Assembly: GCA_030528625.1 (NCBI GenBank)
Contig: JAUMYN010000001.1
Location: forward strand, 372,001 to 436,000
Length of the DNA stretch: 64,000 bases
From: Candidatus Saccharimonadota bacterium
GTDB lineage: Bacteria; Patescibacteriota; Saccharimonadia; Saccharimonadales; Saccharimonadaceae
Direction: 5' to 3'
Shown: positions 717-5,781 of the stretch, piece by piece
Layout of the letters: each line of letters opens with the position of its first letter
Numbering within the stretch: position 1 is the stretch's first letter
The notes under the pieces: model-generated
Told to the model about the DNA's origin: nothing
The model's database searches: none
Seen by the model: the letters and a program-made list of their open reading frames with translations, nothing else
Program-made: the position numbers and the translations under genes

Positions 717-3700
717 ATGGATTTCGACACTCGCTACGCTATGCTTAACGACCGCCAACGCCAGGCGGTTGACCACATCGAGGGCCCGCTACTGGTCATC
801 GCTGGGCCGGGTACTGGCAAGACCGAGCTGCTCAGTATGCGCGCCGCCCAGATTTTGCGCCAGACCGACACTTTGCCCAGCAGTATCCTCTGTCTGACCT
901 TTACCGACTCGGGCGCGGTCAATATGCGCGAGCGCCTGCGCCAGATCATCGGCGAGGACGCCTACAAGGTCGCCATTCACACCTTTCACAGCTTTGGCAC
1001 CGACATTATTTCCCAGCACCGCGAGTACTTTTTCCGCGGCGCCGACATGACACCGGTCGACGAACTGACCCAGCACCAGATCCTGCGCGCGCTGTTTGAC
1101 AATCTCCCCAGCCGCCACCCGCTGGCCAGCAAAAACGGCGATGATTTTACCTACCTGGGCGACACCCTGCGTACCATTTCTGAGTTCAAGCAAAGCGGCC
1201 TAACCCCTGACGAACTGCACGCCATCTGTGATGACAATCAGCGCGTCATGGACGCCATCAGCCCGGCGCTGACCGCCACCTTTGCGGGCAAAATTACCAA
1301 ACATACCATCGAAACCTTCGCCAAACTCGCCCAAACGGCCGCCGCCATCCCGACGCGTCCGCTACCCGGCCACACCACCTCCTACGTCGAGGTGCTGTCG
1401 CTCAGCCTGGCGCATACCGCGCAGGCCGCACTGGCCGACAATTCCACCAAGCCCATCACCGCTTGGCGTAACGACTGGTGCAAAAAGGACGCCCATGGTG
1501 AGTTTCAGCTCAAAGACGCTTTGGCGCTGGAAAAACTCCGTGCCAGCATCGACCTCTATGAAGCGTACAGCGCGGAGCTGGCGAATCGCCGCGCCTTTGA
1601 CTATGACGATATGATCCTCACCGTACTGAGCACCCTCGAGCAACATCCTGACCTGAAGGCCAACCTGCGCGAGCAGTTCCAGTACATCATGGTGGACGAA
1701 TTTCAGGATACCAACAACGCCCAGCTGCAGCTGCTGCTTGCCATCAGCGGCGAGGGCCGCGAGCCAAATGTCATGGCGGTGGGTGACGACGACCAGGCGA
1801 TTTTCAGTTTTCAGGGCGCTGATGTCGGTAATATCCAGAAGTTTCGCCGCTTTTATGCCGATCCGCCCATCGTGGTGCTGACCGACAATTACCGATCCGC
1901 CGACGTGGTGCTGACCGCTGCCCGCGAAGTCATCACCCAGGGCAGCGACCGCCTAGAAAGTACCATCGACGGCCTGTCCAAGCAGCTCACCCCGCACGCC
2001 GATGCCACGGGCGCGAACGTCACCCTCACCGAATATGCTAGTCCCAGTGAGGAGCGGGCAGGACTGGCGCGACAGATCAAACGGCTGATCGACAGCGGCA
2101 CGCCACCCTCTGACATCGCAGTGCTGGCGCGGCGGCATTATGAACTCATCGACCTGCTGCCGTATCTGTCGGCTGAAGGTATTCAGGTCAATTACGAGCG
2201 GCGTGATAACGCCCTGGAGCAGGAGGTGGTGCGCTCGCTCCTTCTCGTGGCGCGCATCGTGCTGGCCTTGTCCCAGAACCAGCAGGATGAGGCCAATGCG
2301 CTCATCCCGGAGCTGCTCGCCCACCCAGCTTTTGGCTTTGCGCCACGCGACATTTGGCAATTGAGCCTCGGGGCGTACAAACAGCGCGCCCTGTGGCTGG
2401 AGCAGATGCTGGCCAGCACCACGTTCAGCGAACTCGCCAATTGGCTGTTGGAACGCGCCGCTGCCGCCCGCACCGAGCCGCTCGAGCAGCAACTGGATGA
2501 GCTGCTGGGGGCAGGGGAGGCGTCCCTCGCCGCCTACTACTTCAGCCCCGCCGCGCTGGCCGCCCAGCCCGACGCCTACCTCTCAGCGCTAGAAGCTCTG
2601 CGCACCCTGCGCGATCGCTTGCGTGACCATTTCACCACCGACACGCCGACGCTGGCGCAGCTGATCGAATTTGTCGATCTCACCACCTCGCTGGGCGCCC
2701 GTATCACCGTCGTCCGCCAGCGCGCTGACCACCAGGCCGGCGCCATCCACCTGATGTCCGCCCACAAGGCCAAAGGCCTGGAATTCCCGCACGTCTTCGT
2801 CATCGGTGCCACCGACGGCGCGTGGGGCGAAAAAGCCCGTGGCAAATCCCGCCTCATCCGCTACCCAGCAAACCTGCCGCTGGCACCCGCCGGCGCCAAT
2901 TACGACGAACGCCTGCGCCTCTTTTTCGTGGCCATGACCCGCGCCAAATCCACGCTCTCTATCAGCTACGCCCGCACCGACAGCACTGGCAAAGACAGTC
3001 TCATCGCCAGCTTCCTGTCGCGCCATACCCCGAGATTAGCGCCCCAGGTACCAGATATAGCGTCCGCCACTCAAACACTGGAGACTGACTGGCGCGCCCG
3101 CCTGACTGCGCCGCTGACCACCGACCTGCGCACCGTGCTGGCGCCGACCCTGGAGCGCTACAAACTCTCCGCCACCCATCTGAACAATTTTCTGGACGTC
3201 TCGCGCGGCGGCCCGCAGTATTTTCTGCTGAACAATCTCCTGCGCTTCCCGCAAGCCAAAAGCCCCGCCGCCGGCTACGGCACCGCCATGCACGCCGCCC
3301 TGCAGCACGCCCACGGCCTGGTACGCGCCGACGGTGCGCTGCCTGACCACGCCGTGCTGCTGGATTATTTCACTGGACAATTACGCCAGCAACATCTCCC
3401 CGAACGCGATTTTCAGGACCTCAATGACAAGGGCCGGGCAGCGCTGAGCGCCTTTCTGACGGCGCGCGCCGCTGATTTTACACCCACCCAGCTGGCTGAG
3501 CTGAACTTTTCTGGGCAGGGAGTGGTGGTCGGCCAGGCGCGACTGACCGGGGCGCTGGACCTGGCGGACATTGACCCTGAACAGAAAACCATCTTCGTCA
3601 CCGACTACAAAACCGGCAAACCAGCCCCGACCTGGCGCGGCCGCACTGATTACGAAAAGATCAAGCTCCACAAATACCGCCAGCAGCTGCTGTTTTATCA

Positions 3701-3965
3701 GTTGCTGGTCACCCAGTCACGGGACTACAGCAGCTACACCTTCACTGGCGGCCGCCTGCAATTCGTCGAACCCGACCCGCAGACTGGCGAGATTCTAGCG
3801 CTGGAAGAGCAGCTCTTAGGCGAGGAGCTGGCCGAGTTTACGCGGCTCATCGACATCGTCTGGCAGCGCATCATGCGTCTCGACCTACCGGACATATCAA
3901 GCTACTCAGCAGACTACAAGGGGATGGTGGCATTTGAGCGGGATTTACTGGAGGGGGCGATATAG
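717..3965 (+). CDS. UvrD/Rep superfamily helicase with C-terminal RecB-type nuclease
   Basis: The protein is 1082 residues and combines an SF1A DNA helicase with a PD-(D/E)XK nuclease domain, like AddA/RecB or PcrA-nuclease fusions that process DNA ends for repair. The helicase motifs are in order: Walker A GPGTGKT at 30-36, VDEFQDT near 327, GDDDQAIFSFQG near 356, the DNYRSA motif, SAHKAKGLEF near 680 and VAMTRAK near 738. The C-terminal 250 residues start with a RecB-like segment (KLSATHLNNFLD) and carry the nuclease signature DYKTGK near 961. The start is supported by a TACAAT hexamer ending 6 nt upstream. No partner AddB is visible, so it may act alone. The helicase assignment is firm; the nuclease role is family inference. 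Confidence 0.93.
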   Translation: MDFDTRYAMLNDRQRQAVDHIEGPLLVIAGPGTGKTELLSMRAAQILRQTDTLPSSILCLTFTDSGAVNMRERLRQIIGEDAYKVAIHTFHSFGTDIISQHREYFFRGADMTPVDELTQHQILRALFDNLPSRHPLASKNGDDFTYLGDTLRTISEFKQSGLTPDELHAICDDNQRVMDAISPALTATFAGKITKHTIETFAKLAQTAAAIPTRPLPGHTTSYVEVLSLSLAHTAQAALADNSTKPITAWRNDWCKKDAHGEFQLKDALALEKLRASIDLYEAYSAELANRRAFDYDDMILTVLSTLEQHPDLKANLREQFQYIMVDEFQDTNNAQLQLLLAISGEGREPNVMAVGDDDQAIFSFQGADVGNIQKFRRFYADPPIVVLTDNYRSADVVLTAAREVITQGSDRLESTIDGLSKQLTPHADATGANVTLTEYASPSEERAGLARQIKRLIDSGTPPSDIAVLARRHYELIDLLPYLSAEGIQVNYERRDNALEQEVVRSLLLVARIVLALSQNQQDEANALIPELLAHPAFGFAPRDIWQLSLGAYKQRALWLEQMLASTTFSELANWLLERAAAARTEPLEQQLDELLGAGEASLAAYYFSPAALAAQPDAYLSALEALRTLRDRLRDHFTTDTPTLAQLIEFVDLTTSLGARITVVRQRADHQAGAIHLMSAHKAKGLEFPHVFVIGATDGAWGEKARGKSRLIRYPANLPLAPAGANYDERLRLFFVAMTRAKSTLSISYARTDSTGKDSLIASFLSRHTPRLAPQVPDIASATQTLETDWRARLTAPLTTDLRTVLAPTLERYKLSATHLNNFLDVSRGGPQYFLLNNLLRFPQAKSPAAGYGTAMHAALQHAHGLVRADGALPDHAVLLDYFTGQLRQQHLPERDFQDLNDKGRAALSAFLTARAADFTPTQLAELNFSGQGVVVGQARLTGALDLADIDPEQKTIFVTDYKTGKPAPTWRGRTDYEKIKLHKYRQQLLFYQLLVTQSRDYSSYTFTGGRLQFVEPDPQTGEILALEEQLLGEELAEFTRLIDIVWQRIMRLDLPDISSYSADYKGMVAFERDLLEGAI

Positions 3966-3972
3966 CAGAAGG

Positions 3973-4001
3973 TTGACTTTTTTAGTCAAGTGTGCTATAA
4001 A
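3973..4001 (+). promoter_or_regulatory. Near-consensus sigma-70 promoter for the structured transcript
   Basis: TTGACT (3973-3978), a 17-nt spacer and TATAAA (3996-4001) lie 8 nt after the helicase stop codon. The predicted transcription start is about 4008, at the foot of the first hairpin of the structured leader. Confidence 0.8.
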
Positions 4002-4007
4002 TATAAG

Positions 4008-4141
4008 TGGCTCTTCGCCGAAGAGCTGTTGTAGCGAGTGCGCTCAGACGTTTGTCTCCCTGTATCAGCAGGGTGGCGTCTGGTGGAAAGCGATTTTCCG
4101 CTCGCTGCAACTCAAATCACCTCTGGGGGGTGAAGGAGGGC
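4008..4141 (+). ncRNA. Structured 5' leader with three-way junction
   Basis: Directly after the predicted start site there is a 7-bp hairpin (4010-4016 with 4020-4026). An 11-bp closing stem follows (4028-4038 with 4101-4111, one G-U pair). Inside it are two arms: 4045-4050/4077-4082 topped by 4058-4062/4069-4073, and 4085-4089/4095-4099. This is a three-way junction of the kind seen in riboswitches and cis-regulatory leaders. A last small stem (4117-4121 with 4129-4133) would cover the GGGGGTGA ribosome-binding segment of the following mini-gene, so it could control its translation. I do not recognise a known riboswitch class. The pairings are seen in the sequence; the regulatory role is inferred. 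Confidence 0.6.
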
Positions 4142-4288
4142 ATGCAGTGGGTAAATACCATGAATTGCCCCAAGTGCCACGGTAGTGGCACTTGCCAGGT
4201 GTGCCTTCCGGGGCACACCTGTCGCACCTGCAATAATACGCAGAAATGCGGCAGGTGCGGCGGCTCTGGAAAAGTTATTAAAGAATAA
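4142..4288 (+). CDS. Mini zinc-ribbon protein with four CxxC motifs
   Basis: The product is 48 residues from the ATG at 4142, or 42 from the ATG at 4160. Counting from the second ATG, cysteine pairs lie at 3/6, 12/15, 21/24 and 30/33: four CxxC motifs at an exact nine-residue period. The outer ones read CPKCHGSG and CGRCGGSG, like the CxxCxGxG zinc modules of DnaJ. Such a peptide should bind two zinc ions. GGGGGTGA lies 8 nt before 4142; a stronger AAGGAGG lies only 2 nt before it, so the start is not settled. The coding DNA also forms three perfect hairpins (4171-4194, 4196-4221, 4223-4259), which is odd for a gene. It is expressed within a larger structured transcript, and its function is unknown. 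Confidence 0.65.
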   Translation: MQWVNTMNCPKCHGSGTCQVCLPGHTCRTCNNTQKCGRCGGSGKVIKE

Positions 4289-4366
4289 CTTCCCAGCGGG
4301 GCGCTAAAGGCCCCGGGGGGTGATTACCCCGCCGAGATCCGTTAAGTCTCGGAAAATAAAATCACA

Positions 4367-4440
4367 CGGGATGTAGCTCAATGGCAGAGCGCTCGCCCAA
4401 AAGGCGAGAGACGCAGGTTCGATTCCTGTCATCCCGGCCA
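4367..4440 (+). tRNA. tRNA-like cloverleaf, anticodon loop CCAAAAG (AAA, no U33)
   Basis: A complete 74-nt cloverleaf is present: a 7-bp acceptor (4367-4373 with 4430-4436), a D arm 4376-4390, an anticodon stem 4392-4396/4404-4408, a T arm 4413-4429 with loop TTCGATT, discriminator G and an encoded CCA (4438-4440). The seven-base anticodon loop is C-C-A-A-A-A-G, so positions 34-36 read AAA and position 33 is C rather than the usual U. Loop closure by C32-G38 would leave only five unpaired bases. Formally this would read Phe UUU, but A34 with C33 is abnormal in bacteria, so it may not decode. It lies in the middle of a long structured transcript, suggesting a processing signal or tRNA mimic. 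The fold is certain; the identity is not. Confidence 0.7.
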
Positions 4441-4737
4441 GGGTACCTCGCGCAACGGCGCGCGAGGTGAGTGCTTGAGCCTTCTGCTTGTGGGAGAGCA
4501 GCGAGGTTCGCACCGGTGTTCGTACAGCGTCGTACGAGCGCCACCCGAAAACTCGTATCCGTCCCGAGGGTGAGGGCGGGACGGATACGCCAAAATTGGG
4601 CTCCAGCGATGATTTTCATCGCGTTGAGCAGGGGAAAGCGCCTGCAACGATGCAGACGTACGCTCCGCGACAGAACCACTGTCGAGCCCTTTATACCGCC
4701 CCTATCTCAACGGCGAGATAGGGGCCTTTTCCTTTTT
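4441..4737 (+). ncRNA. Structured RNA of about 300 nt, class unknown
   Basis: This stretch has no convincing reading frame and folds almost continuously. Hairpins lie at 4445-4468 (9 bp), 4471-4512 (long, with a bulge), 4514-4545, and 4554-4589 (12 bp). A closed domain follows (4598-4603 with 4684-4689) holding stems 4606-4622, 4623-4648 and 4668-4684. It ends in a 10-bp hairpin (4699-4708/4715-4724) with two T runs, a factor-independent terminator. It follows the CCA of the tRNA-like element and appears to belong to the transcript starting near 4008, making a 730-nt RNA. I compared it by eye with RNase P RNA, tmRNA, SRP RNA and 6S RNA and found no consistent match. It could be a stable RNA released by tRNA processing. 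Confidence 0.6.
4699..4737 (+). terminator. Factor-independent terminator of the structured transcript
   Basis: A perfect 10-bp stem (4699-4708 with 4715-4724) has a six-base loop and is followed by CC-TTTT-CC-TTTTT. The loop AACGGC is identical to that of the hairpin at 4445-4468. Confidence 0.85.
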
Positions 4738-4757
4738 GGCGCGCTGGCCCACTCGCA

Positions 4758-4791
4758 AAACATCATGTCATTTGACAAACATCATGATGTT
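4758..4791. promoter_or_regulatory. Inverted repeat and promoter region upstream of dus
   Basis: An 11-bp inverted repeat with arms beginning AAAACATCATG and ending CATGATGTTTT surrounds TTGACA (4772-4777). Downstream, TACAAT (4817-4822) ends 8 nt before the dus start codon. The repeat may be an operator, or chance symmetry around a -35 element. Confidence 0.35.
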
Positions 4792-4830
4792 TTGGCCTAC
4801 ACATGACGAATTATGCTACAATAAACTGAT

Positions 4831-5781
4831 ATGAACTCATTTTGGCACCAGCTCCCGCAGCCATTTTTTATCCTGGCGCCGATGGAAGCCGTCACTGACG
4901 TGGTGTTTCGCCATGTCGTGAAAAAGGCCGGCGCGCCCGATGTGTTTTTCACGGAGTTTGCCAATGCCACTGGCTGGGTGCACGCTGGGCAAAAGGCTAT
5001 CGCCGGGCGGCTGGTGAAAACCGACGATGAGTCGCCAATTGTGGCGCAAATCTGGGGCGGGGAGCCAGGCGACATGGAGCGGTTTGCAGCGCATTGTACG
5101 TCCTTAGGCTACGACGGGATTGATATCAATATGGGGTGTCCCGCCAAATCGGCCATCAAGTCGGGCGGGGCGGCGCTGATTCGCCGGCCAGAGGTGGCGG
5201 TGGCGGCCATCCGAGCAGCCAAGACCGCGGGGTTGCCGGTCAGCGTGAAAACGCGGCTGGGCTATACGTCGGTAGACGAGTGGCGCCAGTGGCTGACGAC
5301 TATCTTGCAGCAAGACATAGCCAACCTGACCATCCACCTCCGCACCAAGAAAGAAATGAGCAAAGTCCCAGCCCATTACGAACTCATCGACGACATCATC
5401 AAACTACGCGACGAAATCGCCCCACAAACGCTCTTGACCATCAACGGCGATATCCGCGACCGAGCCCACGGTGAAGAACTATTTAGAACCCACCCAGGCC
5501 TCAATGGCATCATGATCGGCCGCGGCGTGTTCCACGATCCGTTTTGTTTTAGGGCGGAGGATAGCTCAACTGCTCATGACACATCTGAACTGATCGCCTT
5601 ACTACACTACCACCTCGACCTCTTCGACCAATGGCAACCCACCCTCGGCCGACCATACGAAACCCTCAAGCGCTTCTTCAAAATCTACATCCGCGACTTC
5701 GACGGCGCCAAAGAACTGCGCGACCAACTGATGCACACCACCTCGACCGACGAAGTGCGCCAGCTACTTGATACTGTCTAG
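4831..5781 (+). CDS. dus: tRNA-dihydrouridine synthase
   Basis: The product is 316 residues, typical for the Dus family of FMN enzymes that reduce uridines in the tRNA D loop. The N-terminus carries the flavin-binding segment FILAPMEAVTD (13-23). The catalytic cysteine sits in NMGCPA (Cys103), followed by the GGAALI phosphate-binding region. Later segments VSVKTRLG and TINGDI fit the TIM-barrel core, and IGRGVFHDPF fits the C-terminal FMN phosphate site. The start lies 8 nt after a TACAAT hexamer, with no Shine-Dalgarno site. It is a single-gene unit just downstream of the structured transcript, and 14 bp separate its stop from the convergent coiled-coil gene. Which uridine it modifies cannot be read from sequence. 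Confidence 0.93.
   Translation: MNSFWHQLPQPFFILAPMEAVTDVVFRHVVKKAGAPDVFFTEFANATGWVHAGQKAIAGRLVKTDDESPIVAQIWGGEPGDMERFAAHCTSLGYDGIDINMGCPAKSAIKSGGAALIRRPEVAVAAIRAAKTAGLPVSVKTRLGYTSVDEWRQWLTTILQQDIANLTIHLRTKKEMSKVPAHYELIDDIIKLRDEIAPQTLLTINGDIRDRAHGEELFRTHPGLNGIMIGRGVFHDPFCFRAEDSSTAHDTSELIALLHYHLDLFDQWQPTLGRPYETLKRFFKIYIRDFDGAKELRDQLMHTTSTDEVRQLLDTV

Follow-up and report, generated by a model that had tools for sequence, protein, structure and literature searches.

Within the window, by which we mean the whole 64,000-nucleotide stretch of Saccharibacteria DNA analysed here, the element lies on the plus strand between a UvrD helicase/PD-(D/E)XK nuclease gene (717-3965) and dus, which encodes tRNA-dihydrouridine synthase (4831-5781); both neighbours are also on the plus strand and served as synteny anchors. 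The initial annotation had proposed a transcript of about 730 nt framed by a promoter and a strong terminator, and both are present. The promoter (TTGACT-17 nt-TATAAA, 3973-4001) has its two boxes at 3973-3978 and 3996-4001, and was missed by a stricter consensus scan because that scan requires T at the last -10 position. The promoter end of the locus (query positions 1-153) is 90% identical in a sister species represented by a Candidatus Saccharibacteria MAG (G005), and other small genes of the genus are preceded by the same promoter type. The intrinsic terminator (4698-4737), a stem at 4698-4725 followed by CTTTTCCTTTTT, is conserved in the sister species as well.

Several structured parts follow one another between these ends. 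The first leader hairpin (GCTCTTC-GCC-GAAGAGC, 4010-4026) carries a C-to-T change in the sister species, where a G-U wobble maintains the pair, and the three-way-junction leader described in the initial annotation is found at 4028-4111, about 90% identical in the sister species, with unrelated sequence downstream of it. A hairpin and Shine-Dalgarno region (GGGGGGTGAAGGAGG, 4117-4139) mark the ribosome-binding site, and reading the sequences directly showed that a hairpin recurs at this site in G005, G003, G004 and G008. The zinc-type mini-gene corresponds to an open reading frame (ORF) at 4142-4288 with a CxxC motif, 48 codons long or 42 if counted from the ATG at 4160, and it harbors two perfect 10-bp hairpins (4171-4194 and 4197-4220) and a branched hairpin with an 11-bp outer stem (4221-4261). 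Next come a pseudoknot-like domain (4317-4365), composed of a GGGG/CCCC hairpin (4317-4330) and a second stem (4332-4337/4347-4352), in which the loop TGATT (4321-4325) faces AATCA (4360-4364) as a putative contact; a cloverleaf (4367-4440); and a 3' tail (4441-4692) that includes the hairpin CGACAG-AACCA-CTGTCG (4668-4684).

The folding of this region is exceptionally strong. The predicted energy of 4004-4733 was -377 kcal/mol, compared with -277 ± 7 kcal/mol for 20 dinucleotide shuffles (z -14.4), and each part taken separately exceeded its shuffles: the leader (z -3.9), the ORF (-5.2), the part preceding the cloverleaf (-3.2) and the two halves of the tail (-5.1 and -6.6). Heavy folding that includes the coding part, and a structured tail, thus hold as originally described. 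Across the 64 kb, on both strands, the top folding windows were those of this locus on the plus strand (dE -42; window mean -1.5, s.d. 6.4).

To recover the corresponding loci of relatives, we searched for the upstream helicase in 101 relatives and read the sequence before dus. In most family-level relatives, the region separating this helicase from dus was similarly folded, with z values, rough because they derive from 8 shuffles each, between -4 and -17 in 25 of 30 loci; two loci had essentially no gap. In most gap loci, a small ORF is preceded by a strong Shine-Dalgarno sequence. In the sister species, the leader, cloverleaf and terminator are about 90% identical to those of the window, whereas the ORF region and tail are unrelated, and the locus carries another ORF and two further tRNA-like pieces. 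A whole-locus MAFFT alignment was useless because the cores are unrelated. That relatives have a different version at the same place marks the element, on sequence comparison, as a real and fast-changing RNA gene. The third tRNA-like piece of the sister species (L020, 1577-1669, minus strand) scored 43 bits as tRNA-Sec, for which the gathering score is 47.

The ORFs of these gaps form two new protein families: the helical, basic family A (alignments A3 and A6) and the Cys-rich family B (alignment A4), in which four cysteines are invariant among the nine sequences used. Profile searches returned one match per genome, at the helicase-dus site, the exceptions being G013 and, if its weak match is counted, G039; the family B profile matched at that site only. 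No clear assignment for either family was obtained from Pfam or PHROG. Family A is under purifying selection at the protein level, as judged from the four pairs with unsaturated dS, three of which gave dN/dS values of 0.23-0.32 and the fourth 0.76. Its AlphaFold model has three helices (pLDDT 86), for which a fold search gave no PDB match below E 0.001. The window ORF belongs to family B and has no close homologue; its structure model (pLDDT 60) was too poor to use, and its match to the DnaJ zinc-finger (PF00684) was rejected at 16.1 bits, below the curated cut-off of 32.7. In G013, the helicase-dus gap is only 50 nt, and a family A ORF is found off the site (L118, 1489-1665, minus strand; G013:C23), adjoining a gene with sigma-factor-like sequence.

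These ORFs are also shaped at the RNA level. Under a test that permutes synonymous codons, 25 element ORFs were more stable than their permutations (mean z -2.0), whereas 19 control segments taken from uvrD, dus and atpD were not (mean z -0.24; p 0.0006), and the minimum free energy of the window ORF beat 300 of 300 synonymous shuffles. The coding part thus also experiences selection for RNA structure. Among the members seen, L128 (G075) is the most strongly folded, at -0.60 kcal/mol per nt over 515 nt, and its ORF beats every synonymous shuffle (z -6.2).

The cloverleaf of the window scored 64 bits with the Rfam tRNA model (RF00005) and was called tRNA-Phe(AAA) by ARAGORN. It has a CCA-ending acceptor (CGGGATG/CATCCCG, 7 bp) with D and T arms, as a decoding tRNA does, but lacks the 7-nt anticodon loop with U33: its loop, CCAAAAG, carries C33, compared with U33 in 43 of the 43 other tRNAs of the genome, all of which end in CCA. 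A Phe-GAA tRNA is present elsewhere in the same genome. The five differences from the counterpart in the sister species each fall at an unpaired position. Of the original description as a tRNA with CCA, the cloverleaf and the encoded CCA stand, but not the decoding tRNA: the cloverleaf is a tRNA mimic that cannot decode normally. A recent copy of one of the genome's own tRNAs was ruled out, since the best identity (0.76) is no better than that between unrelated tRNAs. The tRNA score and a similarity of about 80% to phage tRNA-Trp genes would suit a simpler explanation, namely ordinary neighbours, in which a small mRNA precedes an extra or decaying tRNA gene and the hairpins merely stabilise the mRNA.

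This explanation can be weighed against the mimics of other loci. A cloverleaf scan of 37 loci detected 17 mimics, distributed over 15 of them, with no match in 740 shuffled sequences, and further mimics were found by ARAGORN, Rfam and direct reading; about half of the relatives' loci have one to three mimics, and more than half of the loci are without a recognisable one. Four mimics keep a possible normal 7-nt anticodon loop with U33 (L098, the second copy in L127, L129 and L153), as ordinary tRNA genes would. The many kinds of non-decoding arm speak against ordinary neighbours: a tetraloop of the GNRA type (L088), an anticodon arm enlarged by tens of inserted nucleotides (L126), C33 or G33 loops, and D-loop insertions (L126, L127). 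Several mimics have no D arm, and an encoded CCA is absent from many. The 3-70 pair varies among 21 mimics (GC 12, CG 3, AU 2, GU 2 and UA 2; G-C in the window), making a single aminoacylation identity unlikely.

The initial annotation had made its reading depend on covariation in related genomes, and comparative alignment detected it in the acceptor and T arms of 21 trimmed mimics (98.4% of cells pair; 72 double-sided changes versus 20.5 in shuffles), in both hairpin stems of the pseudoknot-like domain (G000, G001/G006, G002, G004 and G005; double changes in 7 of 12 pairs) and in a helix that closes units in sister genera (24 double changes versus 6.4). Alignments A7, A9 and A10 were hand-trimmed to paired positions, so that the counts lean toward the structures. 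The mimics may have different tRNAs as ancestors, and this by itself would give such variation; the arms thus testify to kept structure rather than to one origin. The TGATT/AATCA pair is invariant in nearly all genus members, that is, conserved and not covarying, and would, being complementary, form a pseudoknot. A simple per-sequence pseudoknot search was not significant relative to shuffles in most loci, so the pseudoknot reading derives from comparison. The motif CAGAACC, part of the 3' hairpin, occurs near the 3' end in seven of eight genus members, and the eighth ends early at its contig end.

In other genera, units of 270-950 nt, which usually hold one small ORF, are closed by a helix of 12-17 bp (of the type GACAGGAATAGTGC/GCACTATTCCTGTC); L094 comprises two such units in tandem, each with a different ORF. 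The window's own genus lacks the closing helix GACAGG..CCTGTC. Searching the 3' part of the helix in 295 genomes of the family gave mostly single matches, many of which are chance at three mismatches, and several good matches again lay between helicase and dus, or just before dus. Overall, we consider ordinary neighbours improbable, given that mimic stems are retained while loops vary, that covariation extends before and around the mimic, that ORF folding exceeds codon constraint, and that each genome has one syntenic locus.

We next asked how the element compares with known systems. In the window, Rfam models, including those for GOLLD, ROOL, RNase P, tmRNA and riboswitches, matched only the tRNA. 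Across the loci, at gathering and relaxed thresholds, they returned only tRNA, tRNA-Sec-like and tmRNA-like pieces plus chance matches (flg-Rhizobiales, 21 bits versus 55; RsmW, 36 versus 52). The proposal of a new large RNA or composite transcript is supported by the relatives and the covariation, and we consider it very probable that the element represents a new RNA class. Its parts are of known kinds; neither their combination nor the family turned up in Rfam or in the open-access literature that was searched. SgrS and RNAIII are dual-function regulatory RNAs that are structured and encode a small protein; unlike these, the element has tRNA mimics, folding throughout its coding part and very rapid interior turnover. 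In the rtT RNA of E. coli tyrT, one transcript joins a tRNA to the protamine-like tpr mini-gene, which encodes a small basic protein. The element may parallel this pairing, but the tRNA of rtT decodes.

On balance, we favour reading the locus as a member of an undescribed, single-copy, fast-evolving gene of a Saccharibacteria family that is both mRNA and folded RNA, often with mimics. One promoter-to-terminator transcript would serve as the mRNA for a protein of about 50 residues and as a large folded RNA. RNase P and tRNA-binding factors recognise parts that the window mimic retains. The mimic is probably recognised by RNase P and by the enzymes that process tRNA 3' ends, which would thereby cut or stabilise the RNA, and we regard it as an even question whether the transcript undergoes tRNA processing. 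The small basic or zinc-binding protein may bind the RNA to form an RNP. Because the mimic keeps its acceptor, D and T arms without a working anticodon, the most likely target would be the translation machinery; the mimic would be made for recognition by tRNA-binding factors or the ribosome, not for decoding. An RNP acting on translation is a tentative suggestion. Equally speculative is the full model, in which a hybrid mRNA/tRNA-mimic RNA and its own small protein form an RNP that acts on tRNA-binding factors or ribosomes, while the core is swapped cassette-like between species at one fixed site on the chromosome.

We read the element as working somewhat like tmRNA or GOLLD and belonging to neither. 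Like tmRNA (SsrA, RF00023), it would be a single RNA in which an ORF and pseudoknot-like parts are combined with a tRNA-like part that has no working anticodon, and a second tmRNA-like rescue system, in which these act jointly in trans-translation, has the same ingredients in its favour. Several mimics without a D arm, and a G006 mimic scoring 21 bits as a tmRNA tRNA-like domain, below the gathering score, also fit. We nevertheless judge such a system unlikely: the same genome contains a true tmRNA (82 bits), the window locus does not match RF00023, the ORF has its own Shine-Dalgarno sequence and start, and the tRNA-like domain is not built from paired 5' and 3' ends around a tag ORF but is a closed, self-contained module 3' of the ORF. 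In addition, the G3-U70 alanine identity is missing from the window and from most mimics, and the many relatives without CCA or a constant identity pair argue against a charged, tmRNA-like role.

GOLLD and ROOL resemble the element in being 600-1000 nt long, in their many stems and in having tRNAs within or close to them. A multimeric RNA cage of this type, with a linker bearing the ORF and tRNA mimics, would agree with the similar size and folding and with the tRNAs that GOLLD linkers at times contain (PMC12286853). It too seems doubtful, as the GOLLD and ROOL covariance models gave no match even at relaxed thresholds, no phage genes were found around the locus and the mimic pattern had no match among viral contigs. 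Plasmid matches covered the tRNA part only. The element is instead a chromosomal gene at a conserved site with a selected small ORF.

A core replaced outright from one sister species to the other between conserved ends, the tandem units of L094 with their different ORFs and the fast divergence could be expected of a conflict element, whether a decoy for nucleases that target tRNAs or a unit of toxin-antitoxin type, diversifying in an arms race. We find this improbable for an element that is single copy, vertically kept at a fixed chromosomal site and, in family A, under purifying selection and without a PHROG or Pfam family. Finally, cis-regulation of dus via a tRNA-like operator is highly improbable: in its favour, the element stays beside dus despite a changed upstream neighbour (L150), and Dus acts on tRNA D loops, but a strong terminator and a dus-proximal promoter-like sequence lie between them, a different gene follows in G002, and the family A ORF is elsewhere in G013.

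If real, the gene reading that we favour would add a class of large RNAs from bacteria that are ultra-small and mostly dependent on a host. In it, three features that as a rule occur separately would come together: a small gene that is translated, a coding sequence folded along its whole length, and tRNA mimics whose anticodon does not work. Such a class would offer a natural case of one sequence meeting protein and RNA-structure demands together and, after tmRNA, a second natural experiment on the uses of a non-decoding tRNA body.

Several minor observations concern the surroundings of the element. A near-perfect inverted repeat (AAACATCATGTCATTTGACAAACATCATGATGTTT, window 4753-4794), possibly an operator, lies between the terminator and dus. 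In G002 (L013), a comparable sequence occurs after the terminator, and the next gene there is a different one. Most other leader matches in the genus reflect the shared promoter only, the exceptions being the syntenic loci of G005 and, by promoter, G002. A long form of this promoter (TTGACTTTTTTA.TCAAGTRTG.TATA) is shared by the window (3973-4001), L004, L014 (G000:C3:354299), L018 and L019, and stands in front of several orphan small genes in the genus, of which several have structured leaders. Downstream of the shared promoter, a leader of about 170 nt (AGCTTTTGTTGACAAGTTGAG...CTTTGACAGGCAATCGAACACAAGATGAG...) is nearly identical before different small ORFs (L008, L010 and L015), with two copies in G006 and one in G001, possibly representing a mobile or shared regulatory leader.
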